Assembly: GCF_018324685.1 (NCBI RefSeq)
Contig: NZ_AP023354.1
Span: 2,542,001 to 2,606,000 of the forward strand
DNA from: Actinocatenispora sera
Lineage (GTDB): Bacteria; Actinomycetota; Actinomycetes; Mycobacteriales; Micromonosporaceae
Length of the DNA: 64,000 nt
Direction: 5' to 3'
The notes under the pieces were generated by a model, which was not told where the DNA came from, made no database searches, and saw nothing but the letters and a program-made list of their open reading frames with translations. Of the stretch, positions 1 through 16,154 are shown one piece after another; position 1 is the first letter of the stretch; every line of letters begins with the position of its first letter. Made by a program: the position numbers and the translations under genes.

Positions 1-1227
1 GCGGCGCTGTTCGACTTCATCCGGGCGGACCTGACGAACGGGCTGAAGCAGACGCTGTTCGGCCCGCGCAGCCATCAGGTGATCATGGCCGGGATGGACG
101 CCGCCTGGTGGCTCAACGACCACCTGGCCGAATGGCTCGGCGTCACGAACGCGGCGGACACGCTCAGCCAGTCGGCACCCCACAACGTGACCGCCGAGAT
201 GGGGCTGGCGCTGCTCAACGTCGCCGACGCGGTCCGCGGCCACCCGGAGGTGGTGGCGTTCCTGGAAGAGGTCGAGAACGACGACTTCGTGGCGGAACTG
301 GTGAACCTGCCCGGCGGCCGCGAGGCGCGCAACGAGATCCGCCGTTTCCTCAACTGGTACGGGATGCGCTGCCCCGGCGAAATCGACATCACCCGGCCGC
401 GCTGGATCGAACGGCCCAGCATGCTGCTGGCCGCGATCCTCGGCAACGTCAAGCGTTTCCAGTGGGGCGCCGGCGAGCAACGGTTCGAGCAGGGGGAGCG
501 GGAGGCCAGGGAGTTCGAGCGGGACGTACTGGCGCGGCTGCGCGCGCTGCCGGACGGCGCCGAGAAGGCCGCCGAGACCAAACGGATGATCGACCGGGTG
601 CGCACCTTCGCCGGTTACCGGGAGTACCCCAAGTACGCGATGGTCAGCCGGTACCTGCTGTACAAGCAGGCCATGATGCGCGAGGCCCAGTACCTGGTCG
701 AGGCCGACGTACTGGACGAGGCCACCGACGTCCACTTCCTCACCGTGGCCGAGTTCCAGGACGCCGTCCGCATCCGGTGGGTCGATCCCGAACTGATCCG
801 GCAACGCAAGGCGGACTTCGTCGCGTACCAGGCGCTCACGCCGCCGCGCGTGCTCACCTCCGACGGCGAGGCCGTCACCGGGACCTACCAGCGCGACGAC
901 CTGCCGGCCGGCGCGCTCGCCGGGATCGCGGTCTCCACCGGCACCGTCGAGGGGCGGGCCCGGGTGGTGCTCGACATGGCGCAGGCCGACCTCGACCCCG
1001 GCGACATCCTCGTCACCACGTTCACCGACCCCAGCTGGGTTCCGGTGTTCGTCGGGAGCGGCGGCCTGGTGACCGAGGTCGGTGGCCTGATGACGCACGG
1101 CGCCGTGATCGCCCGCGAGTACGGCCTGCCGGCGGTCGTCGGGGTGCAGAACGCGACCCGCCTGATCCGCGACGGCCAGCGAATCCGGGTCCACGGCACC
1201 GACGGCTACGTCGAACTGCTCGACTGA
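1..1227 (+). CDS. rph: Rifamycin phosphotransferase, C-terminal part (5' end outside window)
   Basis: The frame is open from base 1, so the N-terminal ATP-grasp part lies upstream; 408 codons remain. They cover the end of the central substrate-binding region and the C-terminal phosphohistidine (PEP-utilising, mobile) domain. The swivel motif GGLMTHGAVIAREYG is present, with the catalytic His codon at 1096-1098. Known for the family: ATP, rifamycin and water give 21-phosphorifamycin, AMP and phosphate through a phosphohistidine, which inactivates the antibiotic in the cytoplasm. The segment GYREYPKYAMVSRYLLYKQ fits Rph better than PEP synthase. A general PEP-synthase-like enzyme remains possible because the ATP-grasp half is unseen. 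Confidence 0.8.
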   Translation, partial: AALFDFIRADLTNGLKQTLFGPRSHQVIMAGMDAAWWLNDHLAEWLGVTNAADTLSQSAPHNVTAEMGLALLNVADAVRGHPEVVAFLEEVENDDFVAELVNLPGGREARNEIRRFLNWYGMRCPGEIDITRPRWIERPSMLLAAILGNVKRFQWGAGEQRFEQGEREAREFERDVLARLRALPDGAEKAAETKRMIDRVRTFAGYREYPKYAMVSRYLLYKQAMMREAQYLVEADVLDEATDVHFLTVAEFQDAVRIRWVDPELIRQRKADFVAYQALTPPRVLTSDGEAVTGTYQRDDLPAGALAGIAVSTGTVEGRARVVLDMAQADLDPGDILVTTFTDPSWVPVFVGSGGLVTEVGGLMTHGAVIAREYGLPAVVGVQNATRLIRDGQRIRVHGTDGYVELLD

Positions 1228-1380
1228 CACCGGCGATCCGGGCATGCGTCGGCGGCGACTCGCCCGGCGCGGGCCCGATCGGTGGCGAATCCCGCGCAGG
1301 TCGAGTGGCGGCGCGGCTCGCGTGCCGGTCGGGTGCCGGCACGGGTCGCGCGCAGGTCAGTGAGTGCCGGCGGGGGCGGC

Positions 1381-1422
1381 GCGCGGATCGAGCGGCGGGC
1401 GGCGCGGATCGAGCGGCGGATG
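1381..1422. repeat. Two-copy 21-bp direct repeat
   Basis: GCGCGGATCGAGCGGCGG is repeated head to tail with a 21-bp period (1381-1401 and 1402-1422, 19 of 21 positions equal). It lies in the 256-bp gap between rph and the next gene. No other feature was recognised in this gap except a TACGCT box near 1450. Confidence 0.7.
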
Positions 1423-1483
1423 GCGGCCGGGCGGCTCGAACCAGCTGGGTACGCTGGCCTGATTCGGACCGGAAGGTGGCGAG

Positions 1484-2980
1484 GTGGCCGGTAAGACGGG
1501 TGGCGCACGGCGGCGGTTCGGCTGGGTGATGCTCATCGGCCTGTCCGGAATCGCCGCGGCGTTGCTCGTGATTCACCTGCGGTGGCCGGCCCGGGTCGAT
1601 GCGATCACGCTGGTGCTGCTGGTTCTCGTCGCGCTGCCCGGGCTCGGCCTGGTGCTCGACTCGGCCGAGCTGCCCGGCGGCGTGAAGGTCCAGTTCCGCC
1701 GGCTGGAGCAACGCGTCGAACGCAACGAGCTCACCGCCGAGGCCGCGATCGGTGCCGCCACCGCCCATGCGACCCGGTCGGTCCGCCACCACGCGCCGGG
1801 AGCGCCCGCCCCGTTCGCGCCGGTCGCGGTCGACGGGCTCGGCGGCGCGGTCGCGGCCGACGGCACCGCCGGGCTCGCCGGCACCGTCGGACTCGCCGGG
1901 GCCGGCGGAGCCGCCGGGGTGCCCGGTCACGCCTTCTGCGTCGGCTGCGGTCGCCGGTTGACCGGCCGGTTCTGCGGCGACTGCGGTACCGACAGCCGCC
2001 CGTCGGCGCTCCCGAACGAGTCCGGCGTCCCCGCGGCGTCCGAAGCGACACCGATCGCCGAGCGCCCACGCACCCGGCCGGACATCGGCGACCCGACGAC
2101 GACCTGGCCATCGCACGGGCCGTGGGGTGCGGCGACCCCGGAACCGCCGTTGCCGTGGGGCTCCGAGACGATCGGGTCGGCGCCCACCAGCGGACCGGCG
2201 GCCGACGCCGGCACCGGGGGCCCCCGCCAATCCAGCTGGTACCCGGACCTCGCCGCTGCCGCCGGCGACCAGACGTCGGCCGACGGGAACGACGCCGTCG
2301 AAGCCGACGAGGAGGTCGACGACCGTACCGAACTCGTCGAGTCCGGCGAGGGCGAGCCCGGTACCGACGGTGCCGTCCCGGTGTCGCCGTCTCCCGATCC
2401 GGTCGACCAGCCGAGACGTCGGGTGCCGCCGGGGCCAGTGACCCCAGGGCCGGCCGCGTCCGGACCGGCGATGCCACGGCCAACGGTGTCCGGGCCGGCC
2501 GTGGCGGGGTCGTGGCCGGCGTCGCCGGTCGCCGCCCTCGTCGCCGAGTACGACCGGATCCGCCGTGACCGGCCGAGCGGGCCGCGCCGTACGTCGATGC
2601 TGACCGAGCTGTGCGGCCGGCTGATCGTCGAAACCGCAGCCGACCCGTCCTTCGACCCGGCGGCCGCGATGGGGTCGGCGGATCCGGGCTGGCGGCTCGC
2701 CGGCTACGCCGCGGTGTACGGCAGGCCGGACGCCGAGCTGCTCGGCCCGGTGATCGCCGCGCTGACGGCCGAGTCGGTGGCATTCAACCGGTACTGGGCG
2801 GTTCGGGCGGCCGGCAAGGTGCTCGACCGGTGGGAGCCGTTCTCGCCCGTCCCGCCGCACCTGCTGGGACGGCTGACCGACCTGCGGCGCCGGCTGGACC
2901 TCGACAGCGACGAGTGGTTCGAGCTCGACGCGATCCTGGCCGGGCTGCAGCACCCGGCGGTACCGCCGTACGGCAGCTGA
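1484..2980 (+). CDS. Membrane-anchored zinc-ribbon protein, unknown function
   Basis: 498 residues, GTG start with GGAAGG 7 nt upstream. There are two predicted membrane segments (about residues 12-31 and 37-57), then a short charged helix (FRRLEQRVERNEL) and an Ala/Gly-rich linker. A CxxC...CxxC zinc ribbon follows at about 152-175 (CVGCGRRL, FCGDCG). A long Pro/Gly/acidic disordered stretch leads to a folded C-terminal domain from about residue 345, with Trp- and Leu-rich helices reminiscent of HEAT-like or effector-associated helical domains. The zinc ribbon is of the kind found at the ends of actinobacterial membrane proteins. No enzymatic motif is visible and the function is unknown. Confidence 0.75.
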   Translation: MAGKTGGARRRFGWVMLIGLSGIAAALLVIHLRWPARVDAITLVLLVLVALPGLGLVLDSAELPGGVKVQFRRLEQRVERNELTAEAAIGAATAHATRSVRHHAPGAPAPFAPVAVDGLGGAVAADGTAGLAGTVGLAGAGGAAGVPGHAFCVGCGRRLTGRFCGDCGTDSRPSALPNESGVPAASEATPIAERPRTRPDIGDPTTTWPSHGPWGAATPEPPLPWGSETIGSAPTSGPAADAGTGGPRQSSWYPDLAAAAGDQTSADGNDAVEADEEVDDRTELVESGEGEPGTDGAVPVSPSPDPVDQPRRRVPPGPVTPGPAASGPAMPRPTVSGPAVAGSWPASPVAALVAEYDRIRRDRPSGPRRTSMLTELCGRLIVETAADPSFDPAAAMGSADPGWRLAGYAAVYGRPDAELLGPVIAALTAESVAFNRYWAVRAAGKVLDRWEPFSPVPPHLLGRLTDLRRRLDLDSDEWFELDAILAGLQHPAVPPYGS

Positions 2981-3030
2981 GACGGGCGGCTGGCGGGAGC
3001 GAGCCGTACGGCGGGTCGTAGCCTGGGCGG

Positions 3031-3915
3031 ATGAGTTCGCCGTACTCGGATCTGGGCCGGCCGCCGCTGTCGGCGGCGTCGCTGGCGCGGGCGCTGGTGC
3101 GCCCCGGCGAGCTGTGGACCGAGGTACGGGTGGTCTCCAGCACCGGCTCGACCAACACCGATGTGGCCGCCGCCGCGGCCGACGGTGCCGCCGAGGGGCT
3201 GGTCCTGCTCGCCGAGCAGCAGGTCGCCGGGAAGGGCCGGCTGGGGCGTACCTGGATCTCGCCGCCGCGGGCCGGGCTGCACGTCAGCGTGCTGCTGCGG
3301 CCCGGCCGTACCGATCCGGACGGCCACCGCCCGGTGCCCCCGGCCCGGTACGGGTGGCTCACCCTGCTCGCCGCGGTCGCGCTGCGCGACGCGGTGCACC
3401 GGCTGGCCGAGGTGTCCGCCGCGGTGAAGTGGCCGAACGACCTGCTCGTCGGGCCGGCCGGGGAGCCGGCGACGGGCAAGTGCGCCGGCATCCTGGCCGA
3501 GATGGTGCCCGACCCCGACGGCGCCGGCCCCGCGGTGGTGCTCGGCATCGGGCTGAACGTGACGCTGCGCGCGGACGAGCTGCCCCGCGCCGACGCGACG
3601 TCGCTCGCCCTCGCCGGCGGTACCTGTGCCGACCGGGATCCGCTGCTGCGGGCGCTGCTGCGCGGCCTGGCCGACTGGTACGGGCGGTACCGGGGGGCCG
3701 GCGGTGATCCGGTCGGCAGCGGCCTCGCCGCCGCGTACCGGCGGGTCAGCGGCACGCTCGGCAGCGAGGTACGGGTCGAGCTGCCGGACGGCGGCACGCT
3801 GGTCGGCCGGGCCATCGACGTCGACGACGACGGCCGGCTGGTCGTCACCCCGGCGGACGGTCGCCCGGTCCCGCTCGCCGCCGGCGACGTCACCCACGTC
3901 CGCCCCGCCTGCTGA
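3031..3915 (+). CDS. birA: Biotin--[acetyl-CoA-carboxylase] ligase
   Basis: 294 residues. The enzyme activates biotin as biotinyl-AMP and attaches it to the biotin carrier of acyl-CoA carboxylases. It lacks the N-terminal DNA-binding domain of E. coli BirA, as usual in actinobacteria. Visible motifs are the entry loop TGSTN, the adenylate loop GKGRLGRTW, KWPNDLL and the KCAGILAEM strand; a small C-terminal SH3-like domain follows (VELPDGGTLVGRAIDVD). The box TAGCCT at 3019-3024 stands 6 nt before the ATG, so the mRNA is probably leaderless. The nearby PH-domain protein matches the mycobacterial birA neighbourhood. Confidence 0.95.
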   Translation: MSSPYSDLGRPPLSAASLARALVRPGELWTEVRVVSSTGSTNTDVAAAAADGAAEGLVLLAEQQVAGKGRLGRTWISPPRAGLHVSVLLRPGRTDPDGHRPVPPARYGWLTLLAAVALRDAVHRLAEVSAAVKWPNDLLVGPAGEPATGKCAGILAEMVPDPDGAGPAVVLGIGLNVTLRADELPRADATSLALAGGTCADRDPLLRALLRGLADWYGRYRGAGGDPVGSGLAAAYRRVSGTLGSEVRVELPDGGTLVGRAIDVDDDGRLVVTPADGRPVPLAAGDVTHVRPAC

Positions 3916-4204
3916 GCACCCGCCCCCGGCGAGCTGTCGCCCGCCACGCTGTCGTCCCCGGTGAGCTGTCGCCGGACGGGCTTTCGCCCGGCCCCGGAAG
4001 CCTGCGACCGACTCCGAAGGTGTCCGCCGCGTCGCCAGCGCGCGGCGGCCGGCTCCGGGATGCCGCCCCACCCGGACGTGTTGCTGCCCCGCCTGGGGCG
4101 CCGCCAATTGCCGCATTCGGCCGCGCTGCCAGTGGTCATGGCTCAGGCTGGAAGCAACCTGTCGTGGCGCGGCCCCGGCAGGGTCGCGGGGGCGAGGAGG
4201 AGTG
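3916..4204. other. Intergenic region before the Asp23 operon
   Basis: 289 bp with no convincing gene. The first part has loose repeats of GAGCTGTCGCC. The last bases carry a strong ribosome binding site (GAGGAGG at 4194-4200) that fixes the ATG at 4205 as the start of the next gene. The promoter is not obvious. Confidence 0.5.
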
Positions 4205-4396
4205 ATGTCCCACCGGCAATACGCCTTCCTGGTCGGGTTGTTGATCGCCTGGCTGTGGGCGAGTGTCGGCTTCCTCGTCGCGGTCGGCGGGGTTGCTGCC
4301 GGGCTTGTCGGCTACGTGATCGTGCGGGTGCTGGAGGGCGACGTCAGCCTGGGTGACCTGACCGACCGGTTCGGCTCGTCGAAACGACCGCGCTGA
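4205..4396 (+). CDS. DUF2273-like small membrane protein
   Basis: 63 residues. GAGGAGG lies 4 nt before the ATG; an in-frame GTG at 4202 is too close to it. One long hydrophobic stretch (about residues 6-42, probably a hairpin of two short membrane helices) is followed by a soluble tail with DLTDRFGSSKRPR. Small proteins of this type are regular neighbours of Asp23/Gls24 genes in Gram-positive bacteria, and the next gene is Asp23. Likely a membrane component of the same envelope complex (inference). Confidence 0.8.
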   Translation: MSHRQYAFLVGLLIAWLWASVGFLVAVGGVAAGLVGYVIVRVLEGDVSLGDLTDRFGSSKRPR

Positions 4397-4436
4397 CGGC
4401 AGGCGGGGTCCGGCAGATACGAGGAAGGGGACCGTG

Positions 4437-4940
4437 ATGACGAGCAGTTCGTCTGCCGCGGTGGAGCGGGACGGTACCGAAGGTGCCGGTTCGGGTGGTG
4501 CACGCCCTACCGGGCCAGGTGGGCCGCGCAGCCACGCCGCGCTGACAACCGAGCACGGCCAGACCCGCATCGCGGACGCGGTGGTGGGCAAGATCGCCGG
4601 CCTGGCCGCGCGGGAGATCCCCGGCGTCTACTCGATGGGCACCGGGTTCGCCCGCCGGATGGGGCAGCTGCGCTCGCTGGTACCGGGCAGTACCGAGACC
4701 GACGCCGCGGCGCAGGGCGTGTCCGTGGAGGTCGGCGAGCGGGAGACCGCGGTCGACCTGGACGTGGTCACCTGGTACGGGCAGAGCATCGTCGAGGTGA
4801 CCGAGGCGGTGCGCAGCAACGTGATCGAACGGGTCGAGGGGATGACCGGGCTGCGGGTGGTCGAGGTGAACATCAACGTCGACGACATCTACGTCGAGGG
4901 CCAGGACGACAACGAGCCCAGCCAGTCGCGGGTGCAGTGA
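4437..4940 (+). CDS. Asp23/Gls24 family envelope stress protein
   Basis: 167 residues from the ATG at 4437; GAGGAAGGGG just upstream supports it, with a GTG at 4434 as the alternative. A disordered N-terminus of about 40 residues leads into the Asp23 fold: IADAVVGKIAGLAAREIPGVY, then VSVEVGERETAVDLDVVTWYG and IERVEGMTGLRVVEVNINVDDIYV. In Staphylococcus aureus, Asp23 is an abundant cytoplasmic protein held at the membrane by AmaP and linked to cell-wall stress. The four genes that follow touch or overlap each other, so a co-translated operon is likely. Confidence 0.9.
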   Translation: MTSSSSAAVERDGTEGAGSGGARPTGPGGPRSHAALTTEHGQTRIADAVVGKIAGLAAREIPGVYSMGTGFARRMGQLRSLVPGSTETDAAAQGVSVEVGERETAVDLDVVTWYGQSIVEVTEAVRSNVIERVEGMTGLRVVEVNINVDDIYVEGQDDNEPSQSRVQ

Positions 4941-4941
4941 G

Positions 4942-5274
4942 GTGCGCGGTTCGGACCGGGCCGGGCTGGCCCGCGCCGTCGCCGCCGCGGCCGGATCGAC
5001 GCCGGGGGTGGCCCGGTTGGTCGCCGGCGGGCTGATCCCGGCGGTCACGCACGTGCCCGGTGGGACCGTGACCGGGGTCCGCCTGGGCACCACCGCGGTG
5101 TCGGTGCACGTCGCGATCGACCGGTTCCCGCTGGAGCCGGTGATCACCGGAGTGGTGCAGGCGGTCGGCGCGGTACTGTCCGGCGCCCACGACGAGCGTC
5201 GGGTCGAGGTCGTCGTCGAGGACGTGGAGGACAGCGCGCTGCGCTCCGGCCCGTTCGCCACCGGGGCGTCGTGA
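4942..5274 (+). CDS. Short Asp23-like protein
   Basis: 110 residues, GTG start one base after the Asp23 stop. The core (TPGVARLVAGGLIPAV, then VRLGTTAVSVHVAIDRFPLEPVI and RRVEVVVEDVE) follows the same helix-strand pattern as the Asp23 protein before it, without the N-terminal extension, so it looks like a reduced paralogue. It may assemble with Asp23 at the membrane (inference). No catalytic motif is seen. Confidence 0.75.
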   Translation: MRGSDRAGLARAVAAAAGSTPGVARLVAGGLIPAVTHVPGGTVTGVRLGTTAVSVHVAIDRFPLEPVITGVVQAVGAVLSGAHDERRVEVVVEDVEDSALRSGPFATGAS

Positions 5275-5813
5275 TGCGGCTGGTCAACCGGCTGCTGGCG
5301 GTGGTGCTGGGCCTGGCCCTGCTGGCCGGCGGCCTGCTGCTCGCCGCCGAGGCGGTACTGGCCGCGGCCGGCCGCCGGCCGTGGCTGGTCCGGTTCGACA
5401 CCTGGCTGGGCCCGCTGCAACGCGCCACCCTGGGCGACCCGATCGTGCGGAGCATCGCTCTGGCCGTCGCCGCGCTCGGCCTGCTGCTGTTGATCCTGCA
5501 GGTACGGCCGTGGGCGCCGCGGCTGCTCGCGATCCGGCGCCGCACCGGGGTGGAACCGGTGCACTGGTCGGTGTACCGACGGTCGGTGGAACGCGAGCTG
5601 TGCGCCGCGGTCGACACCGTCGCCGGGGTCACCGAGACCACCGCACGGTTGCGCGGCAAGCGATCCCGGTGGCGGCTGACGGTCAGCCCGCGCGGCCGCG
5701 CCGACTCGCGGACGCAGGTACGCGAGGTGGTGGCCGGCCAGCTGGACCGGATCGCCGCACCGCTGCCGGTCAAGCTGCGGGTGTCGATGCGCCGGCCCCG
5801 GCGGGTGGCCTGA
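5274..5813 (+). CDS. Two-helix membrane protein of the Asp23 operon (DUF6286-like)
   Basis: 179 residues. The ATG at 5274 overlaps the previous TGA by one base. Two membrane helices (about residues 5-28 and 58-80) are separated by an amphipathic stretch. A basic cytoplasmic domain follows (RRTGVEPVHWSVYRRSVERELCAAVDTVAGV, given in part), ending in an RVSMRRPRRVA tail. The C-terminal domain resembles the Asp23/AmaP C-terminal unit in its strand pattern. Likely a membrane anchor or partner for the two Asp23-type proteins. Confidence 0.75.
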   Translation: MRLVNRLLAVVLGLALLAGGLLLAAEAVLAAAGRRPWLVRFDTWLGPLQRATLGDPIVRSIALAVAALGLLLLILQVRPWAPRLLAIRRRTGVEPVHWSVYRRSVERELCAAVDTVAGVTETTARLRGKRSRWRLTVSPRGRADSRTQVREVVAGQLDRIAAPLPVKLRVSMRRPRRVA

Positions 5814-6499
5814 TGGACCGCGGCAACCGGATCCTGTTCACGATCGTCGGCGCGGTCCTGCTGATCGCCGGGCTCGCCGTCGGGTTCGCCGGGTTCGGGT
5901 TGATCCCGCCTGTCGACTCGTCGACCCGGCTGCTGCCGGACTCGGTACGGGGCCGCTGGCACGACTGGGGCGTCGGGGCGTGGATCGTCGCGGCGGCGGT
6001 CGGCGTGCTGCTCGCCGTGCTGGGCGTGCTGCTGGTCCGCGGGCAGTTCCGTTCCGGGCGGGGCCGACCGATGCCCGACCTGCTGCTCACCGACCCGGCG
6101 CTGACACCGCCGAGCCGCGGCGTCCGTCCGGCCAATCCCGTGGCTGCTCCTGCCGAGGATGACGGTGCCGGCGCGGGCGCCGTGGCGGCCGGGGGCGACG
6201 ACGAACGGGGCACCGGGCCGGGGCGTACCCGGGTACGCACGGCTGCGCTGGTGCACGGGTTCGAGCGGGACCTGGCCCGCCATCCGAAGGTACGAAGGGT
6301 CAACGTGCTGCTCGCCGGCGACGCCGGCGCTCCCCGCGTGTACGCCCGGTTGGAGCTGCGCTCCGGTGTCGACGTGTCGCACGTGCAGGCGTACCTGTCC
6401 GAGAGCCTGGCCCGGTTCACCGCAACGACCGGACTGGCGCCGACCGACGTCGACGTCGTCGTGCAGCTCACCGACCGCGACCAGCTCCGCGTGCACTGA
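5813..6499 (+). CDS. amaP: AmaP-like alkaline shock membrane anchor protein
   Basis: 228 residues. The ATG at 5813 overlaps the preceding stop (TGATG). Two membrane helices at about residues 8-30 and 52-76 give an N-terminal hairpin. A disordered acidic/glycine linker follows, then a C-terminal alpha/beta domain (ERDLARHPKVRRVNVLLAG, YARLELRSGVDVSHVQAYL). Known for AmaP in S. aureus: it anchors Asp23 to the membrane. Topology, size and operon position all agree, although sequence similarity to firmicute AmaP is weak. Confidence 0.8.
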   Translation: MDRGNRILFTIVGAVLLIAGLAVGFAGFGLIPPVDSSTRLLPDSVRGRWHDWGVGAWIVAAAVGVLLAVLGVLLVRGQFRSGRGRPMPDLLLTDPALTPPSRGVRPANPVAAPAEDDGAGAGAVAAGGDDERGTGPGRTRVRTAALVHGFERDLARHPKVRRVNVLLAGDAGAPRVYARLELRSGVDVSHVQAYLSESLARFTATTGLAPTDVDVVVQLTDRDQLRVH

Positions 6500-6578
6500 C
6501 GGGGTCACGCCGGCGGGGCGGTACTGGCGCGAGTCGACTAGATTGCCGGGGAATCGGTCGATGTTGCAGGAGGTCGTC

Positions 6579-7070
6579 GTGGGTTTCCCGGAGAGCTTGC
6601 TCGTCACCGAGGAGCAGGTGGTGCTGAGCCTGCACCCGCACTGGAAGCGGCTGGTCGGCGCCGTCCTGTTCACGCTGCTGGTGGTGGCCGCGGCGATCGC
6701 CGGCCTGGTCTACACGCCGTGGCGGATCGTGCAGTACGTCATCCTCGGCGTCGCGGTGGTGCTGCTGATCGTCTACCCGCTGCGGCGGCTCATCGGCTGG
6801 GCCACCACGCACTACGTGTTCACCACGCACCGGATCCTGCTGCGTTCCGGGGTGATCTCCCGGTCCGGCCGGGACATCCCGCTGGACCGGATCAACGACG
6901 TGTCGTTCCAGCACAACATCTTCGAGCGGATGCTCGGCTGCGGCACCCTGGTGATCGAGTCGGCCGGTGAGCACGGGCAGATCGTGCTGAAGGACGTCCC
7001 GCACGTCGAGCGCACCCACGGCACGCTCTACCAGCTGGTCGAGCAGGACGACGGCCGTCCGGACGCCTGA
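6579..7070 (+). CDS. PH domain-containing membrane protein (bPH2 type)
   Basis: 163 residues. The GTG at 6579 is preceded by AGGAGG (6568-6573); an upstream in-frame ATG at 6561 has no ribosome binding site. Two membrane helices form a hairpin (about residues 22-62). They are followed by a bacterial pleckstrin-like domain: TTHRILLRSGVISRSGRDIPL, then INDVSFQHNIFERMLGCGTL and a strand-rich end. The equivalent gene sits beside birA in M. tuberculosis (Rv3278c, from memory). Function unknown; a role at the envelope is plausible because it follows the Asp23 operon. Confidence 0.85.
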   Translation: MGFPESLLVTEEQVVLSLHPHWKRLVGAVLFTLLVVAAAIAGLVYTPWRIVQYVILGVAVVLLIVYPLRRLIGWATTHYVFTTHRILLRSGVISRSGRDIPLDRINDVSFQHNIFERMLGCGTLVIESAGEHGQIVLKDVPHVERTHGTLYQLVEQDDGRPDA

Positions 7071-8661: not shown

Positions 8662-9228
8662 CTACTCGGGCCGGTCGCCGTGGTCTCCGTCGGCGGGCTC
8701 GGGCAGGCCGGTCGTCGGATCGACGACCGGATCCTCCGCGGGCAGGAACACCCACCTGCGGTAGGCGAAGAACCGGAACAGCGTACCGAGCGCCGTACCG
8801 ACGATCGAACCGGAGATGTTGTTCGCCAGCGTGGTCTGGAACACCGCCGGCCACTGCCCGCCGAGGATGTAGTAGCTGAATCCCAGGCACAGCAGGGAGA
8901 TCAGCAGCCCGACCGCGTTCATCACGAAGTAGAGGAAGTACTCCCGGGCCAGGTTGGTGTGCGGCCGGTTGCGCCACGTCCAGTACCGGTTGCCGACGAA
9001 CGCGAGGGTGGCCGCCACGGTCACCGAGATCGTCTTGGAAGTCAGCGGGCCGAGCCCGAGCAGCGACTCGCACACGTTGTAGATGCCGATGTCGACGAAG
9101 AAGTTGACCCCGCCGACGATGCCGAACTTGGCGACCTCGTGGATCAGCTGGCGGAAGCGGGCATACAGGCCGCGCAGCCCGCCGGCGCCGGGGGCTGCGG
9201 CCGCGCCCTCCGCTCGCGACTCCGCCAC
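8662..9228 (-). CDS. GtrA family membrane protein
   Basis: 188 residues from the GTG at 9228; TACTCT (9241-9236, minus) stands 7 nt before it. A longer frame starts at 9273. Four membrane helices of the GtrA type are visible: FGIVGGVNFFVDIGIYN, ISVTVAATLAFVGNRYWTW, YFLYFVMNAVGLLISLL and a fourth near LGTLFRFFAYRRWVF. GtrA proteins help move polyprenyl-linked sugars across the membrane for surface polysaccharide synthesis. A GtrA gene next to purK is also present in M. tuberculosis (Rv3277, from memory). Confidence 0.88.
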   Translation of the reverse strand: MAESRAEGAAAAPGAGGLRGLYARFRQLIHEVAKFGIVGGVNFFVDIGIYNVCESLLGLGPLTSKTISVTVAATLAFVGNRYWTWRNRPHTNLAREYFLYFVMNAVGLLISLLCLGFSYYILGGQWPAVFQTTLANNISGSIVGTALGTLFRFFAYRRWVFLPAEDPVVDPTTGLPEPADGDHGDRPE

Positions 9229-9386
9229 GCGGCCGAGAGTACCGACCGGCCCCGGCCGCCCCGCCGCGAGCACGCAAATCGGGCCCGGCCGCCGCGGGGC
9301 CGTTCACCCGGCTGGCCGACCGACCAGGAGATATCGCCCTCGATGCCGGGATCGCAGCCGTCGGCGACCACCGCATCCGGCGCCGG

Positions 9387-12071
9387 TCAGCCGGCGGGGC
9401 CGGCGATGGCGAGGGCGCCCACGGAGTACTTGTCCTGGCCGCCGGTGCTGAAGGTCAGCTGGCCGTCGGCGGACACCGACGCGGAGCGGGCGGTGACGTC
9501 GGTACCGAGCAGGTTCCAGTTCGGGTCCGCGGCCGACTCCGGTGCGCTGGCGGAGGCGCTGTGGCCGACGTCCGCGACGGTGGTGGAGCCGAACCGCAGG
9601 GTGTCGTCGCCGAGCCGGCCGTCCTCGCGCCGGTCGCCGTCCCACAGCGTCGCGCCGAGCCGGGCGGTACCGGCGGTGCCGACGCCGAGCCGCGCGACCA
9701 GCGGCGACCCGATCTGCTGGGCGCCGTCGAACACCGCGACGTTGCGGCTCGGCCCGCTCGGCAGGGTGACCACCACCTGCAGGCTCCAGCCGTCGAACAC
9801 CCCGCCCGTTGCGGTCCCGGTGTACACGTCGTCGGTGGCGAACGCCCAGGTGCCGCCGCCACCGTTGGCGAGCAGCGAGGTGACGTTCGCGCTGTACTGC
9901 CGGCCGCCGGGGAGGGCGGTCTGGGCGCCGGTGACGCCGTGCGTGCCGCCGGACGGGTCGATCAGCCGCACGCCGGCCGGCAGCGAGCCCGTGCTGCCGC
10001 GGCCGGCCCAGGTCAGCTGCGCGTACGCGACGCGCGCGCCGGCCGGCAGGCTCACCCGGGCGCGGCTGCGGGCGCCGGAACTCGCCGCGTGCGCGCCGCC
10101 GTCGCCGTGGTACGGGACGACCGTGCACTGGTCGTTGACCGCGCACGGCTTGCGCTGCCCGAGCGGCAGCGGGATGGGCAGCAGCCCGCCGCTGGTCCCG
10201 CGGATCAGCGTGTTGCCGGCGGACACCAGCTGTGCCCGCCCGGTGGCGGCGTACGCGGTGCGCATCTGTTGCGGCGCGACCACCACCGGGAAGCTCTCCG
10301 ACACCGCCTGCCCGGGTACCGCGACCCGCACCCGGACCGGCTGGAAGCCGGCCACCGAGCCGACGTCGACGTGCGGCCTGAGCGTGCTGCTGGCGCCGGT
10401 CGGCAGCAGCGCGTGGGTGCAGGTGATGGTGGCCTGGTGGCCGGTGCAGGTCCAGCCGCTGCCGGCCGCGCCGGAGCTGCCGGCGGTCATCGGGTTCGGC
10501 AGCGTGATCGTCACGGTCAGCCGGCCCGCCGCGGACGGGCTGGGCGAGGCGGACGGTGCCGGCGAGGCGCTCGCCGACGGGCTACCGCCCGGGCTGCCGT
10601 CGTACCCGCCGGCCGGCAGCTGCGCGGGCGCCACCGGGCCGAGGGCCGGCGCCTCGCTCGGTACCGGCGGGCCGGGTGCCGGATGCGGCGTGGACGGGTC
10701 GGTCGGCCGCAGGGCCGGGGCGGCGGGCGGCGGGGCCGTCGGGTCGGCGAACGGGATGAGTCCCTCGCCGTCGCCGCCACCCCCGCCGCCGGCCGGGTTG
10801 CTGATGGTGATGGGCAGCGCCGAGTCGGTGTCGCCCACCGACAGCGTGCCGGTGCTCAGCTTCGGCGGCGTCACCCGGTACGGCGGCTGGGCCGGCGCCG
10901 GCTGGCGTTTTTTCGGCGGCGCCGGAGCGTGCCCGCCGGTCGGTCCCGCGGTCGGATGCTGCGCCGGCGGCGTGGCGGCCGGGGGCGGCTGGTGTCCGGG
11001 CGGCTGCCCGCCGGGCGGGGCACCGGGCGGGGCGGCCGGCTGCGAACCGGCGGCGCGCGGCTGGTGCCGTGGCGGCGGCGCGGACGACGAGGTGAGCAGC
11101 AGCCCGACCACCAGGGCGACCGCGACCGCGGCGCCGCCGCCGATCGCGGCGTTGCGCGGGCCGATCTTCGTCCACAGGCCCTTGAACCACAGCAGCACCG
11201 CGTGCCAGGTGTGCTGGAACCACACCACCACGCCGGTACCGGCGACCGCGGCGGCCTTGGTGGCGCCGCCCAGCCCGAGGTAGGCCGACCAGGTCGTGCC
11301 GGCGATGACCGGTGCGATCAGCTCGCGCAGGCCGGAGTTGATCTCGCCGAGTTCGGTGTAGAGCAGGGTGCACTTGGCGCAGTCGGCGAGGTGCTCGTCG
11401 ACCTTGTGCCGCTCCCGCCGGGACAGCCCGTCCCGTACCCGGGTGCCGAGCCGTTCGGCCGCCCACCGGCACGCCGCGTCGGTCTCCCCGGCGATGTGCT
11501 CCTGCAGGTACATCTGCTTGAGCCGTTCCCGCGCCCGGTAGGCCAGCGCGGAGACCCCGTTGGCGGTCAGCCCGAGCAGCGGCGCCACCTCGGCCGGGCT
11601 CTCGCCCTCGATCTCGGTGTGCCACAGCACGGTCTGCCAGCGCTCCGGCAGCCGGCGGAACGCCCGCGCGGCGAGGCTGCGTTCCAGCCCCTCGCTCGCG
11701 GTGTCGATGAACGGGACGCCCGTCTCGTACTGCCCGATGTCGTCGGTGACGGTCAACCGCCGGTCCCGGCGCACCTGGTCGTAGAACAGGTTGCGCAGGC
11801 TGGTCAGCAGGTAGGCGCGGAACGCCTCGGTCGGGCCGTGTCCGGCCCGCAGCGTCGAGAGCACCTTCGCGAACGCCTCGGCGACCAGGTCGTCGACCGC
11901 CGCGGAGTCGCGGACCAGCGTACGGGCGAGGCGCTTCGCGGCGTCGACGTGGCGCAGGTAGAGCAGCCCGAACGCCACCGCGTCGCCGTCTCTGGTCGCC
12001 GCGATCAGTTCGGCGTCGCTGCGTTCGACCGAGGCCGCCGCGGTCGACCCCGGATCGGGTGAGGTTGTCAT
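9387..12071 (-). CDS. ECF sigma factor fused to zinc finger, membrane helix and extracellular domains
   Basis: 894 residues from the ATG at 12071; a GTG frame start at 12119 is less likely. Order: sigma region 2 (about 18-100), sigma region 4 (about 130-190, LPERWQTVLWHTEIEGES, LGLTANGVSALAYRARERL), an anti-sigma-type zinc finger (H227...C231xxC234), a membrane helix (about 307-327), a Pro/Ser/Ala-rich wall-spanning region (about 330-530), and beta-rich extracellular domains to the end (VAYAQLTWAGRG, GGVFDGWSLQVVVTLP). Sigma factor, anti-sigma factor and outside sensor are thus one polypeptide. ECF groups with such C-terminal extensions are known in actinobacteria. Release of the sigma part by conformational change or proteolysis is inference. 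Confidence 0.9.
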   Translation of the reverse strand: MTTSPDPGSTAAASVERSDAELIAATRDGDAVAFGLLYLRHVDAAKRLARTLVRDSAAVDDLVAEAFAKVLSTLRAGHGPTEAFRAYLLTSLRNLFYDQVRRDRRLTVTDDIGQYETGVPFIDTASEGLERSLAARAFRRLPERWQTVLWHTEIEGESPAEVAPLLGLTANGVSALAYRARERLKQMYLQEHIAGETDAACRWAAERLGTRVRDGLSRRERHKVDEHLADCAKCTLLYTELGEINSGLRELIAPVIAGTTWSAYLGLGGATKAAAVAGTGVVVWFQHTWHAVLLWFKGLWTKIGPRNAAIGGGAAVAVALVVGLLLTSSSAPPPRHQPRAAGSQPAAPPGAPPGGQPPGHQPPPAATPPAQHPTAGPTGGHAPAPPKKRQPAPAQPPYRVTPPKLSTGTLSVGDTDSALPITISNPAGGGGGGDGEGLIPFADPTAPPPAAPALRPTDPSTPHPAPGPPVPSEAPALGPVAPAQLPAGGYDGSPGGSPSASASPAPSASPSPSAAGRLTVTITLPNPMTAGSSGAAGSGWTCTGHQATITCTHALLPTGASSTLRPHVDVGSVAGFQPVRVRVAVPGQAVSESFPVVVAPQQMRTAYAATGRAQLVSAGNTLIRGTSGGLLPIPLPLGQRKPCAVNDQCTVVPYHGDGGAHAASSGARSRARVSLPAGARVAYAQLTWAGRGSTGSLPAGVRLIDPSGGTHGVTGAQTALPGGRQYSANVTSLLANGGGGTWAFATDDVYTGTATGGVFDGWSLQVVVTLPSGPSRNVAVFDGAQQIGSPLVARLGVGTAGTARLGATLWDGDRREDGRLGDDTLRFGSTTVADVGHSASASAPESAADPNWNLLGTDVTARSASVSADGQLTFSTGGQDKYSVGALAIAGPAG

Positions 12072-12346
12072 GACCGGCCGTTCTCTGGGGGGGGAGCGGT
12101 GCGTTGACCGACAAAACACGCTTACCGGTTCAACGGCCCAGCGCGATCTTGGTGACGGAGCGATCGCGTACCGTCTGCGCCCTTCTGTGACGGCCGTCCC
12201 AAAATTGCTGTCGCATTCGCGTCATGAACCGGGCCCGGCGGCGTCACTTCACCGGGGCCGCGCGCGCTGCGGCGGGGGGCTGTCGTCCGGACGGTTGCCA
12301 GCAGCGCTTCGCGCGGCCACAGGTGCCGGCCGACGAGGGAGGCGGT
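12072..12346. other. Divergent intergenic region, sigma fusion / GGDEF-like gene
   Basis: 275 bp. It holds the ribosome binding site GAGGGAGG (12335-12342) of the plus-strand gene and an A/T-richer patch at about 12193-12220. An eight-G run at 12088-12095 lies just upstream of the sigma-fusion ATG. No clear operator was recognised. Confidence 0.4.
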
Positions 12347-13192
12347 GTGGCAGGCAGCCACCGCAGGTTGACCAGCGTGCCCGGGGTGCCGGGCAGTTGG
12401 AGTTTCGGACGCAACCTGGAACAGATCCGCCAGACCTGGCGGCGCGAGTCGATCGCGTCCGGCTGGAGCCGGCCGCACGACTGGTGGGTACCGGAGGTCG
12501 ACGTGCTGGCCGCGGCGCTGAGCCGGGCCAGCACCACGTTCGCGCCGGGCCTGGGGCGCCCTCCGCTCGACGCGGCCGGACGGATCGGCGCGGCGGTACC
12601 GGCGTGCGCCGGGCTCGGGCAGGCCCGCGCCGAGGCGGGTGTCGGCCTCGCCGAGGCGCTCGACGACCTGGCCGCGCTGTACCGCACGCTGCCGGTCGGC
12701 GCGCCACCGCTGCCGGCGGTACGGGCGTTCGTGGAGTCCTGGGCGGACGTCTGGTTGCGGGTGGTGGCCGACGCCGGCTGCGTCGACCCGCTCACCGAGC
12801 TGGCCAGCCGCGGCTACCTGCGGGCCCGGCTCACCGAGCTGTACCGCGCCGCCGAGCAGACCGCCGAGCGGGTACCTGACCGGTACCGGCTGGTGGTCGT
12901 GACGCTGGAGGCGGCGGACCAGCCGGAGGGGCGGCCCGGTTGGCGCCTGCTGCTGCGCCGGGTGGCGGTCGCCGAGGCGCTGCGGGAGGCGTTCCCGGGC
13001 GGCGAGACGCTCGCCGCCGTCGCGCCGGACCGGGCGGTCGCGATCGTCGACCGGCGGCTGCCCGACCCGGTGAACCGGCTGCGCGAGGTGCTGGCCGGCC
13101 GGCCCGGCGTCGCCCCGGCCCGGGTGACCACGGCCGCGCTGCCCGAGCGGGTGGTGGGCCTCGCCGAGTTGCTCGCCGAACTCGGCGAATGA
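12347..13192 (+). CDS. Degenerate GGDEF-like protein
   Basis: 281 residues from the GTG at 12347, chosen for GAGGGAGG 4 nt upstream; the open frame runs back to 12224. The first half is helical (SFGRNLEQIRQTWRRESI, GLAEALDDLAALYRTLPV). The second half begins CVDPLTELASRGYLRARLTELY, which matches the DxLTGLxNR entry of diguanylate cyclases. No GG(D/E)EF active-site loop follows, so c-di-GMP synthesis is unlikely. It may be a nucleotide-binding or structural relic of that fold. Divergent from the sigma fusion. Confidence 0.7.
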   Translation: MAGSHRRLTSVPGVPGSWSFGRNLEQIRQTWRRESIASGWSRPHDWWVPEVDVLAAALSRASTTFAPGLGRPPLDAAGRIGAAVPACAGLGQARAEAGVGLAEALDDLAALYRTLPVGAPPLPAVRAFVESWADVWLRVVADAGCVDPLTELASRGYLRARLTELYRAAEQTAERVPDRYRLVVVTLEAADQPEGRPGWRLLLRRVAVAEALREAFPGGETLAAVAPDRAVAIVDRRLPDPVNRLREVLAGRPGVAPARVTTAALPERVVGLAELLAELGE

Positions 13193-13436: not shown

Positions 13437-14612
13437 ATGGACACGCGCACCAACCTCCCCGTGGTCGGCATGGTCGGGGCCGGGCAGCTCGCCCGGATGA
13501 CCCACCAGGCCGCGATCCCCCTCGGCCAGTCCCTGCGGATCCTCGCGGCCAACGCCGACGACGGCGCCGCGCTCGTCGCCAGCGACGTCCTGATCGGGTC
13601 GCACACCGATTTGGCCGCGCTGCGCGAGCTGGCCGCCGGCGCCGACGTGGTCACGTTCGATCACGAGCACGTGCCGGCCGAGCACATCCGCACCCTGCTC
13701 GCCGAGGGGCACAAGGTGTTTCCCGGCCCGGATGCGCTGATCTGCGCGCAGGACAAGCAGGTGATGCGGGAGCGGCTGGGCAAGCTCGGCGCGCCGTGCC
13801 CGCGCTGGGCACCGGTCGACACCCCGGCCGATCTCGACGCGTTCGCCGCCGGCAGCTGGCCGGTGGTGCTCAAGGCCGCGCGCGGCGGGTACGACGGCAA
13901 GGGCGTCTGGCTGGTCGGCTCGGCCGACGAGGGGCAGCGGCTGGTCACCGAGCTGCGGACCGCCGGTACCCCGCTGATCGTCGAGGAGCGGGTCGCGCTG
14001 CGCCGGGAACTGGCCGCGGTGGTGGCCCGCTCACCGTTCGGGCAGGTCGCCGCGTACCCGGTGGTCGAGACGGTGCAGGTGGACGGGATCTGCGTGGAGG
14101 TGATCGCGCCAGCGCCGGGGCTGCCCGAGCAGCGCGCGATCGAGGCGCAGCAACTGGCCATCCGGATCGCGAACGAGCTCGACGTGGTCGGCGTGCTCGC
14201 GGTCGAGCTGTTCGAGACCGGTGCCGGGGCGGACGAGGCGGGCGGCGGGCTGGTGGTCAACGAGCTCGCGATGCGACCGCACAACTCGGCGCACTGGACC
14301 ATCGAGGGCGCCCGTACCTCGCAGTTCGAGCAGCACCTGCGGGCGGTGCTGGACTACCCGCTCGGCGCCACCGGGCTGACCGCGCCGTGGGTGGTGATGG
14401 CCAACGTGCTCGGCGGCGAGCCGGGCGGGATGGGCATCGACGAGCGGCTGCACCACCTGATGGCGGAGCTGCCCGACGCGAAGGTCCACCTGTACGGCAA
14501 GCAGGTACGGCCGGGCCGCAAGATCGGCCACGTCACGGTGCTCGGTGACGACCTGGCGACGGTGCGCGACCGGGCTGCGCGCGCCGCGACCTGGCTGCGC
14601 GACGGCAGCTGA
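13437..14612 (+). CDS. purK: 5-(carboxyamino)imidazole ribonucleotide synthase
   Basis: 391 residues, ATP-grasp enzyme that carboxylates AIR to N5-CAIR with ATP and bicarbonate in purine synthesis. Visible features are the N-terminal glycine motif GMVGAGQLARMTHQAA, TFDHEHVP, the ATP-grasp loop KAARGGYDGKGVW, VEERV, and the end motif NELAMRPHNSAHWTIEG. TAGGCT (13423-13428) lies 8 nt before the ATG, so the mRNA may be leaderless. purE follows 108 nt after the stop. Confidence 0.97.
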   Translation: MDTRTNLPVVGMVGAGQLARMTHQAAIPLGQSLRILAANADDGAALVASDVLIGSHTDLAALRELAAGADVVTFDHEHVPAEHIRTLLAEGHKVFPGPDALICAQDKQVMRERLGKLGAPCPRWAPVDTPADLDAFAAGSWPVVLKAARGGYDGKGVWLVGSADEGQRLVTELRTAGTPLIVEERVALRRELAAVVARSPFGQVAAYPVVETVQVDGICVEVIAPAPGLPEQRAIEAQQLAIRIANELDVVGVLAVELFETGAGADEAGGGLVVNELAMRPHNSAHWTIEGARTSQFEQHLRAVLDYPLGATGLTAPWVVMANVLGGEPGGMGIDERLHHLMAELPDAKVHLYGKQVRPGRKIGHVTVLGDDLATVRDRAARAATWLRDGS

Positions 14613-14720
14613 GACGATCGGCGGCCCGTCCGCCGATCCCCGATGGGCCGCGCCGGGCCGGCGGTACGGCCGAGACTCCGGCGGCGAGCGTTCGCCGGAC
14701 CGACGACAGGCGAGGTACTC

Positions 14721-15227
14721 GTGGCGGAGCAGGCACCGACGGTCGGCGTGATCATGGGCAGCGACTCGGACTGGCCGACGATGCAGGCGGCCGGCGACGC
14801 GCTGGCCGAGTTCGACGTCGACTTCGAGGTACGGGTGGTCTCGGCGCACCGCACCCCGGCGCTGATGCTCGACTACGCCCGGCAGGCCGCCGACCGCGGC
14901 CTGCGGGTGATCATCGCCGGCGCCGGCGGCGCCGCGCACCTGCCGGGCATGGTCGCCTCGGCGACGTCGCTGCCGGTGATCGGGGTACCGGTGCCGCTCA
15001 AGCACCTGGACGGGCTGGACTCGCTGCTGTCGATCGTGCAGATGCCGGCCGGCATCCCGGTCGCGACCGTCTCGGTCGGCGGTGCCCGCAACGCCGGCCT
15101 GCTCGCCGTGCGCATGCTGGCGGCGTCCGACGCCGCGCTGCGGGACCGGATCGTGGCGTTCCAGCGTGACCTGGAGCGGATGGTCGCCGACAAGGACGCC
15201 ATGCTGCAGGAGCGCCTGCGCCCCTGA
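14721..15227 (+). CDS. purE: N5-carboxyaminoimidazole ribonucleotide mutase
   Basis: 168 residues from the GTG at 14721 (AGGCGAGG ends 5 nt upstream); an upstream GTG/ATG frame to 14643 is not supported. Class I PurE, converting N5-CAIR to 4-carboxy-AIR after PurK. The motifs [21 protein letters not shown] (catalytic His) and [12 protein letters not shown] are intact, and the octamer-forming C-terminal helix is present. It pairs with purK in the usual order. Confidence 0.97.
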
Positions 15228-15268: not shown

Positions 15269-16054
15269 TCAGCCGGTGCGGGAGGGCAGCGCGGCCCGGA
15301 ACGGCCGGGGGCGCCGCGGTGCCGGCCAGAGTTCGGCGAGGTCGGTCGGCCAGCTCGCGGTCCCGCGCTGGTCGCGCAGGGCCAGCGCGGTCGCGTACAG
15401 CTGGACGTCGCGCAGGTCGAGCCCGTGGCCGGCCGCGCGCAGCCGCTCCAGCACCGGTGCGACCTCCTCGGCCCACCAGCCGGCGGCCAGCGCCTCCCGG
15501 TCGGCCGGCGCGCAGCCGGCGAGGGTGCGCTCCAGCGCCCAGGACTGCGCGGAGTCGGCCAGCCGCAGCCACTCTGCCGGGCTGTCCAGCCACAGCTGGG
15601 TCCGGACCGGCTGCGGCAGCGGGACCCGGCGCAGGAACTCCAGCTCGGCCCGCTTGCTGGCCAGATCGGCCGCGCGCAGGCAGGCCATCCCGTACGCGAT
15701 GGTGCAGATCCGGCGAATCCGCGCGGCGATCACCAGCCGGCCGAGCTCACGGGCCACCGAGACGCGGTGGTGCCCGTCGGCGACGAAGTACAGCTCGCCG
15801 AGCTGGATCAGCTCGACCGGCGGCGGCTCCAGGCCGGTCGACATGGCATCGGCCAGGCTCCGCCAGCGCTGCTGCAGGTGGGCGCTGACCAGCCGGAACT
15901 CCTCGTCGAAGTCGCCCGCGCGGTCCACCGTGCCGACCACCTGGGTCAGCGGTACGTCGCCGACGCGGTCGTCCATCACGCCGTCGGCGCCCAGCGCGTC
16001 CAGCGCGTCGTCCAGCCGCATCAGCCCGGCCCGGGCCCGCCCAAACACCCGCAT
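15269..16054 (-). CDS. ParB/sulfiredoxin-like domain protein
   Basis: 261 residues from the ATG at 16054; the open frame extends to 16129. The central part (VELIQLGELYFVADGHHRVS) carries the DGxHR motif of ParB N-terminal/sulfiredoxin-fold domains. The C-terminal half is helical with many Trp residues (WLDSPAEWLRLADSAQSWALE in part). There is no ParB helix-turn-helix or CTP-hydrolysis box to support chromosome segregation. Similar proteins are widespread and unstudied in actinobacteria. Convergent with purE. Confidence 0.65.
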   Translation of the reverse strand: MRVFGRARAGLMRLDDALDALGADGVMDDRVGDVPLTQVVGTVDRAGDFDEEFRLVSAHLQQRWRSLADAMSTGLEPPPVELIQLGELYFVADGHHRVSVARELGRLVIAARIRRICTIAYGMACLRAADLASKRAELEFLRRVPLPQPVRTQLWLDSPAEWLRLADSAQSWALERTLAGCAPADREALAAGWWAEEVAPVLERLRAAGHGLDLRDVQLYATALALRDQRGTASWPTDLAELWPAPRRPRPFRAALPSRTG

Positions 16055-16154
16055 GCAACCACCAACTCGGTCACACTGGTGTCCATTCCGGCAGGCCGGG
16101 CCGGAGCGGGAAACAGTGACGACCCTCACGAGTGCCCAGCGGCAGCCGCGAACG

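Follow-up and report, generated by a model that had tools for sequence, protein, structure and literature searches.

Whether a single bacterial protein could carry a signal from the cell surface directly to a promoter is the question raised by one gene in the 64-kb stretch of Actinocatenispora sera DNA analysed here (the window). The gene encodes an 894-residue protein in which an extracytoplasmic function (ECF) sigma factor, an anti-sigma zinc finger, a membrane helix and a surface-protein-like outer part follow one another, and we consider it probable that this protein works as a tethered sigma factor with its own anti-sigma domain. A preliminary description of the locus had proposed such a fusion at positions 9387 to 12071, and its observation on the layout is confirmed: the coordinates are correct, and the open reading frame with its Pfam domains lies on the minus strand, which that description did not name. 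A plus-strand frame across 9387-12071 is spurious. Reading starts at the ATG at 12071; three same-genus copies likewise open with MTTSP at this lower ATG, so the in-frame GTG at 12119 further upstream appears a less likely start. Full-length relatives were found across other actinobacterial families (the named relatives belong to Actinomycetota), and the 894-residue protein is therefore no chance frame. The gene and its parts are the following.

9387..12071, minus strand: complete fusion gene (sigma, zinc-finger, membrane and extracellular parts), start ATG at 12071, stop at 9387-9389
11757..11963, minus strand: sigma region 2, residues 37-105 (Pfam Sigma70_r2, 2.4e-11), helical in the model, with 10-residue blocks mostly at a predicted local distance difference test score (pLDDT) of 96-98
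11520..11669, minus strand: sigma region 4, residues 135-184 (Pfam Sigma70_r4_2, 3.3e-6; model)
11370..11471, minus strand: zf-HC2 anti-sigma zinc finger, residues 201-234 (Pfam, 9.4e-7), with C201, H227, C231 and C234
11265..11321, minus strand: conserved hydrophobic stretch, residues 251-269 (in relatives IAPxxLGxxxxxYL, with G258 and Y264 kept in all 59 rows)
11094..11150, minus strand: membrane helix, residues 308-326 (hydropathy 2.41; helix 313-327 in the model)
10857..11090, minus strand: Pro-rich tether, residues 328-405 (78 residues, 35% Pro, by composition)
10797..10856, minus strand: first strand element of the DUF11-like domain, residues 406-425 (...ALPITISNP..., matched by eye to the LPITVxN element of Pseudonocardiales)
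10527..10796, minus strand: low-complexity Pro/Ala/Gly insert in the DUF11-like domain, residues 426-515 (90 residues)
10212..10526, minus strand: remaining DUF11-like domain (D1), residues about 516-620, boundary approximate, with the Cys pair C542/C551 (hhalign, model)
9390..10124, minus strand: DUF3344-like surface-protein domain (D2), residues about 650-894, boundary approximate (common module, Pfam, tblastn, model)

Searched as a whole against Pfam up to E 1, the protein matches Sigma70_r2, Sigma70_r4_2 and zf-HC2 and no other family, each match exceeding its Pfam cut-off. NCBIfam TIGR02937 is matched as well (1.5e-18), all of the 25 matches listed out of 59 being to sigma families, and PDB profile matches are to ECF sigma factors; with regions 2 and 4 both present by Pfam, NCBIfam and PDB profiles, the protein is a member of the ECF sigma factors. 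Family counts given here refer to the nearest relatives, namely the best 80 of at least 507, and one structure alignment of 59 rows joins the window protein with 58 of these 80 as genome-contig loci, plasmid-record loci being left out. The residues of regions 2 and 4 that are invariant in these rows are compatible with binding to core RNA polymerase. In the zinc finger, the HxxxCxxC motif (H227/C231/C234) is invariant and C201 is kept in at least 90% of the rows, and these Cys/His ligands place the domain among the zinc-binding anti-sigma (ZAS, zf-HC2) domains. Both the sigma regions 2 and 4 and the HxxxCxxC finger had been read from the letters in the preliminary description, and both readings hold. 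A model of residues 1-334 (mean pLDDT 80.9, predicted template modelling score (pTM) 0.43) contains two helical sigma domains, zinc-finger helices at 199-212, 218-230 and 232-257, and a helix at 313-327, but with a pTM of 0.43 the relative placement of these parts is untrustworthy.

The stretch at residues 308-326 is the single strongly hydrophobic one in the window protein, and agrees with the membrane helix that had been placed near 307-327. Among the 77 proteins with a clear helix, many of which are closely related and so do not make 77 independent tests, the 25 residues flanking the helix contain more Lys and Arg on the N-terminal side than on the other in 54, equally many on both in 16 and fewer in 7. 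Cys residues after the helix come in an even number in 70 of the 77, two of these having none. Together with the kinship of the tail to surface-protein domains, the charge bias and the even Cys counts make it most likely that the tail is outside the cell, where the preliminary description had also put the C-terminal domains. The conserved hydrophobic stretch at 251-269, which that description omitted, lies between the zinc finger and the membrane helix and matters for the topology, perhaps for release too. Just behind the zinc finger, the best 19 residues average 1.78 in hydropathy and reach at least 1.6 in 65 of the 77 proteins; the window protein's own second stretch is weak (1.18 at 251-269 and 1.37 at 265-283), and it is stronger in most relatives. 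If this stretch spanned the membrane, the tail would be inside, contrary to the topology favoured here; our view is that it probably lies along or within the inner leaflet, or else packs against the sigma part.

Behind the helix, the preliminary description had seen a 200-residue Pro/Ser/Ala-rich spacer. This region resolves into the 78-residue tether, the strand element at 406-425 and the 90-residue insert; the tether before the first folded element is therefore shorter than had been stated. The beta-rich C-terminal domains of the same description are borne out by a model of residues 515-894 built with ten sequences (pLDDT 77.7, pTM 0.80), which consists almost entirely of beta structure and has some loops scoring below 50. 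D1 aligns with the Pseudonocardiales-type domain with an hhalign probability of 97.9 (profile from 15 of 22 chosen Pseudonocardiales rows), and Pfam DUF11 does not reach the window tail. For D2, Pfam DUF3344 (PF11824) matches two of the 11 tails of this module type (best 9.4e-5), neither of the two being the window protein. By tblastn, the tail found a Deinococcus protein (1e-6) and two Thermus loci (6e-4 and 6e-3); of these three matches, the two proteins scanned both carry DUF11 domains (the Deinococcus protein and a Thermus protein annotated DUF11), and DUF3344 appears below cut-off (0.0023) in the Thermus protein found with D2. A PDB sequence search with the tail profile gave one weak match to a streptococcal surface protein (0.016), which was not used. 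No carbohydrate-binding family was found in the window protein (Pfam to E 1) or in the 11 tails (Pfam, NCBIfam), a very distant module being conceivable. According to the available parts of the published sources, DUF11 is listed as a stalk domain and DUF3344 overlaps one predicted adhesin cluster with unclear binding (PMC9210967), and DUF3344 proteins of Methanoperedens plasmids are predicted to be extracellular (PMC9674854).

The outer modules vary on what is, by sequence, a conserved core of sigma part and zinc finger. An iterated profile of residues 511-894 found the window's module in 11 of 87 proteins (the window and L001-L086), carried by the window, Nonomuraea, Stackebrandtia, Glycomyces, Rhizocola, Allorhizocola, Hamadaea, Catellatospora, two Nocardiopsis and one Actinomycetes metagenome-assembled genome. 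Clustering of 76 complete tails from L001-L086 (with the zinc-finger pattern and at least 120 residues, the window excluded) placed 56 in one Pseudonocardiales/Actinopolyspora cluster of DUF11 type and 10 with the window-type module, and other relatives end in a ricin-B lectin (L004) or in a Big_6 Ig-like domain below the Pfam cut-off (L003). The module is single-copy within its own genome, and 22 of 41 genomes (its own and 40 relatives, all three other genus members included) match it at 0.001, some of these matches being partial or falling within other large open frames. A tree of the core requires three changes for the module group; seven module rows including the window's form one clade (Shimodaira-Hasegawa-like approximate likelihood ratio test support 96) and the remaining module rows are placed elsewhere. 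With several long branches and 31 of 84 inner branches below 80, the number of module gains is uncertain. Between same-genus copies, identity is 99, 97 and 82% for the core and 90, 82 and 57% for the tail, a faster change of the tail such as might be expected for a fixed output with a changing input.

Some individual relatives differ in their surroundings or their tails. L003, on an Arthrobacter alpinus plasmid of permafrost source (285-6827), carries, immediately ahead of the fusion, genes for an LPXTG pilin, a class C sortase and a SpaA-type pilin, a neighbourhood which suggests a tie of such sigma factors to pilus or surface-protein assembly, and the L004 fusion adjoins a sortase-dependent surface protein. 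An Amycolatopsis copy (L057) has a short and different tail, whose appearance by eye is SH3-like.

What such a sigma factor would act on may be indicated by its surroundings, since a second conserved gene stands back to back with the fusion gene and two promoter-like elements lie between them.

12132..12156, minus strand: ECF-type promoter-like element facing the sigma gene, GTCACCAAGATCGCGCTGGGCCGTT (pattern in all four genus copies)
12221..12245, plus strand: ECF-type promoter-like element facing the divergent gene, GTCATGAACCGGGCCCGGCGGCGTC
12368..13192, plus strand: divergent conserved gene, probable degenerate GGDEF protein, start uncertain (TTG at 12368 or GTG at 12377)
8662..9273, minus strand: GtrA-family membrane protein, the next gene downstream on the same strand (Pfam GtrA_DPMS_TM, 2.9e-25)
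13437..14612, plus strand: purK, syntenic neighbour (Pfam)
14643..15227, plus strand: purE, syntenic neighbour (Pfam AIRC, 1e-64)

In 69 of 87 loci a homologue of the divergent gene is found upstream of the sigma anchor, at a distance of at most 2.5 kb. Of the 72 genome-contig loci with room and a complete frame, 61 have a GtrA gene downstream of the fusion, in the same orientation, and purK is divergent and within 7 kb upstream in 60 of the 77 loci with room. The product of the divergent gene is a probable degenerate GGDEF protein, as judged from distant similarity: a 19-row profile gave weak matches in PDB sequences with three GGDEF structures on top (0.0059, 0.0073 and 0.13), and by eye a DPLTGL helix is present, with GGET or similar where GGDEF is expected. 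The GG(D/E)EF active-site motif itself is not present at this place, which was assigned by eye. The GGDEF family of Pfam had no match in the 19 members, where the only two families listed were weak single matches (0.045 and 0.071), and hhalign against one GGDEF protein, a single-sequence comparison, gave a probability of 1.2. In four Micromonosporaceae loci without the GGDEF-like gene (L039, L047, L067 and L076), the divergent neighbour has 609-629 residues and the promoter elements are absent; that of L039, the only one scanned among the four, is phosphoenolpyruvate carboxykinase.

The first motif scan covered 75 of 87 upstream regions (12 were without the anchor), while later scans with another anchor covered all 87 or 99. 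Upstream of the sigma gene, the tetramer pair GACG-N18-GACG occurs in 54 of the 75 regions, against 15 for the best pair in one shuffled set and 44 in a coding control (a GC-rich pair). With TGACG as the second box, the form is present in 56 of 87 regions and has 87 occurrences, those 56 included, on both strands of the 1.36 Mb of all loci. It was found in 54 of the 69 loci with the divergent gene and in 2 of the 18 without, or in 68 and 6, respectively, with one mismatch allowed in the first box; chance would give 0.60 of 87 for the exact form and 7.22 with the mismatch. Read toward the divergent gene, the same form is GTCAY-N16-CGTY. A copy facing the sigma gene was first spotted by eye in the window's genus and the pattern was then tested on 99 loci, the 12 added ones having at most 84% best identity to the earlier 86 and including three from the window's genus. 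At a spacer of 16 the pattern points to the divergent gene in 70 loci, where 1.8 would be expected, and to the sigma gene in 19, where 2.0 would be, whereas spacers of 14, 15, 17 and 18 give 4, 2, 1 and 1 toward the former and 0, 3, 3 and 2 toward the latter (1.2-2.1 expected). The sigma-facing element occurs in all four genus copies and 15 further loci, and is absent from all 26 loci that lack the divergent gene; the presence of this gene was entered by hand and, for L117-L128, rests on one query with a looser limit. In the window, GTCAY-N16-CGTY occurs exactly twice, 64 bp apart in the same intergenic region and in opposite orientations.

According to the accessible text of PMC3426412, ECF promoters typically have CGT at -10 and AAC at -35, ECF41 uses TGTCACA-n16-CGTC, and ECF sigma factors generally regulate their own genes. 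In the pattern found here the CGT at -10 fits, whereas the AAC at -35 is missing. We infer that the elements are promoters read by the fused sigma factor. Two other searches came to little: matches to a classical GAAC...CGT promoter ahead of the sigma gene were single and scattered, in four of the seven regions available from the 11 members of the module group, and in 12 loci without the GGDEF-like gene the best shared promoter-like pairs reached 6 of 12, with 4-5 in ten shuffles, which is unconvincing.

How these parts may work together can be outlined as follows, an outline that we hold to be probably right as a whole. In the resting state, the sigma part would be kept inactive at the cytoplasmic side of the membrane by the zf-HC2 domain fused immediately after region 4, while outside the Pro-rich tether would bear the DUF11-like stalk domain and the DUF3344-like surface-protein domain. 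A change at the surface, such as a bound ligand, contact with a matrix, or damage to the envelope or the tail, would trigger stepwise proteolysis and free the sigma part, which would then read the GTCAY-N16-CGTY promoters of its own gene and of the divergent GGDEF-like gene, the most conserved target. Inhibition by the zinc finger, the topology, the proteolysis, the recognition and identity of the promoters and the nature of the signal are all putative steps. Proteolysis is proposed by analogy because of IutY, of what is expected for ECF48, ECF52 and ECF53 (PMC8999054) and of the effects of truncated SCO4117 (PMC5826349), as far as the available parts of these sources go.

Several observations weigh against this outline. 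The window count of the pattern is at chance level (2 found, 3.49 expected), and the placement alone is telling; 80 of the 99 loci are without the sigma-facing element, both elements are missing from 22 of the 26 loci that lack the divergent gene, and the same-genus copies L117 and L119 have a divergent-facing -10 box other than CGT. GTCAY-N16-CGTY was derived from these same loci, and inheritance inflates the counts; the tree has only five independent well-supported pairs differing in the divergent gene, and a tree-based association with the earlier motif form was not significant (median p 0.25 strict, 0.5 relaxed). Across its own genome the divergent-facing pattern shows no enrichment (15 matches, with 15 in a reversed control), and therefore no regulon is claimed. 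The model of residues 1-334 offers no sign of the zinc finger docking on the sigma part.

The lack of enrichment and the 22 loci that keep the sigma gene with neither element would both suit a different assignment, in which GTCAY-N16-CGTY belongs to another ECF sigma factor or a DNA-binding protein and the fused sigma factor has its targets elsewhere; the form noticed first, a direct repeat of GACG 22 bp apart, could also be a repressor site. We regard this as possible but rather unlikely, as the 16-bp spacing is fixed, CGTY stands at -10, one and the same element faces the two divergent genes in opposite orientations, it stands beside the sigma gene in several families, and self-regulation is general among ECF sigma factors in the portion of PMC3426412 at hand. 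Release without cleavage is a more doubtful alternative: ligand or tension would shift the membrane helix and loosen the zinc finger, so that the intact protein transcribes promoters near the membrane. Such a movement could be relayed by the conserved hydrophobic stretch beside the zinc finger, and a conformational change is named alongside proteolysis in the ECF52 proposal (PMC5826349, available in part). However, IutY, the sole experimentally characterised member of this mechanistic class according to the accessible part of PMC8999054, works by proteolysis, and SCO4117 without its zinc finger, membrane region and binding module still affects its own gene and development (PMC5826349, same portion).

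It is slightly less probable again that the outer part is chiefly structural or adhesive, with the sigma part reporting the loss or secretion of this element rather than an outside ligand. Its domains are of stalk and surface type, and the neighbourhoods of L003 (sortase/pilin operon) and L004 (sortase-dependent surface protein) would fit, but the window protein has no LPxTG- or LAxTG-type motif, its outer module is present once with no repeats noticed, and no pilus or sortase gene is found among the ten window neighbours scanned. Returning to the tethered and proteolytically released sigma factor, a wider version of it is conceivable, though we would give it little weight in full: a self-contained surface-to-gene switch, in which an adhesin-like sensor of contact or matrix, placed beyond the cell wall, frees the sigma part to act on back-to-back promoters, with the degenerate GGDEF protein as the main conserved output linking surface state to cyclic-dinucleotide or related signalling, and in which the outer module (stalk, lectin or Ig-like) is swapped between lineages while the core stays fixed.

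The preliminary description had presented the protein as a one-component route from surface to promoter. The fusion layout stands, and its novelty does not: fusions of sigma, anti-sigma and membrane parts, with release by proteolysis expected, are published for ECF52 (SCO4117) and ECF53 (available text of PMC5826349 and PMC8999054), and the one-component idea is in print in the title of Pinto et al. 2019, as cited in the accessible part of PMC8103513. The window protein resembles ECF52, as far as the sources consulted describe it, in regions 2 and 4, the zinc finger, the membrane helix, the Pro-rich extension, the extracellular domain and the occurrence in Actinobacteria, to which ECF52 is confined. 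ECF52 is described there with a carbohydrate-binding module (smart00776 in SCO4117), whereas the window protein has DUF11-like and DUF3344-like domains; SCO4117 adjoins atrA, whereas the neighbours here are the GGDEF-like gene, GtrA and purK/purE. An assignment to ECF52 was dropped, the zinc finger, helix and Pro-rich extension being present and the carbohydrate-binding module searched for and not found. ECF53 is a serious candidate for the group home, compared by description alone: like the window protein, ECF53 and ECF48 have a C-terminal zinc finger, one to two membrane helices and an expected proteolytic release (PMC8999054, in part), and both of the former features were found in the window protein. 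Some ECF52 and ECF53 members have predicted hydrolase or binding domains (available part of PMC10766802). IutY of Pseudomonas putida (ECF243) is likewise a sigma factor fused to a membrane-bound anti-sigma factor and uses regulated proteolysis, but it serves iron-starvation cell-surface signalling with aerobactin, and the accessible part of PMC8999054 mentions neither a stalk nor a surface-protein module in it. DUF11/DUF3344 surface proteins and fibrillar adhesins share the outer domains and are without a sigma part, to which the window protein joins these domains through the membrane. To our knowledge, ECF41 sigma factors are soluble, with neither membrane helix nor zinc finger. They resemble the window protein in having a C-terminal regulatory extension, which differs in being of SnoaL_2 type, and their promoter TGTCACA-n16-CGTC resembles GTCAY-N16-CGTY (PMC3426412, in part).

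To the published layout the present analysis adds a sensor module of surface-protein type, a conserved locus and a pair of promoter-like elements, none of which we found in the literature searched. No paper among those listed treats an ECF sigma factor with DUF11/DUF3344 domains or this locus, the promoter itself not having been searched for, most subscription papers lying outside the search, and classification papers possibly describing the locus or promoter. What is known of actinobacterial sigma/anti-sigma membrane fusions comes mainly from sequence; SCO4117 is called the best understood (PMC8999054), and its promoter is unsettled, the authors' motif differing from the predicted one (PMC5826349), as stated in the available portions. 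For such a fusion, comparison alone yields a precise promoter prediction with one element directed at each of the divergent genes, points to a best-conserved candidate target and reveals natural exchanges of the sensor on one core.

A few minor observations complete the picture. A 286-residue minus-strand gene beside purE (15269-16129) has no Pfam match up to 0.01, and PADLOC gave no match up to 0.01. One same-genus copy (L118) has a frame apparently broken in the Pro-rich spacer, and L027 and L084 stop before or near the membrane region; a comparable split is reported in S. clavuligerus (PMC5826349, in part). These three may reflect sequencing error in GC-rich repeats, decay or a real on/off mechanism. 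In Streptomyces sp. NBC_01001 (L005:9424-10735), an annotated PrsW-family intramembrane protease lies about 2.8 kb from the fusion and is a candidate releasing protease there.

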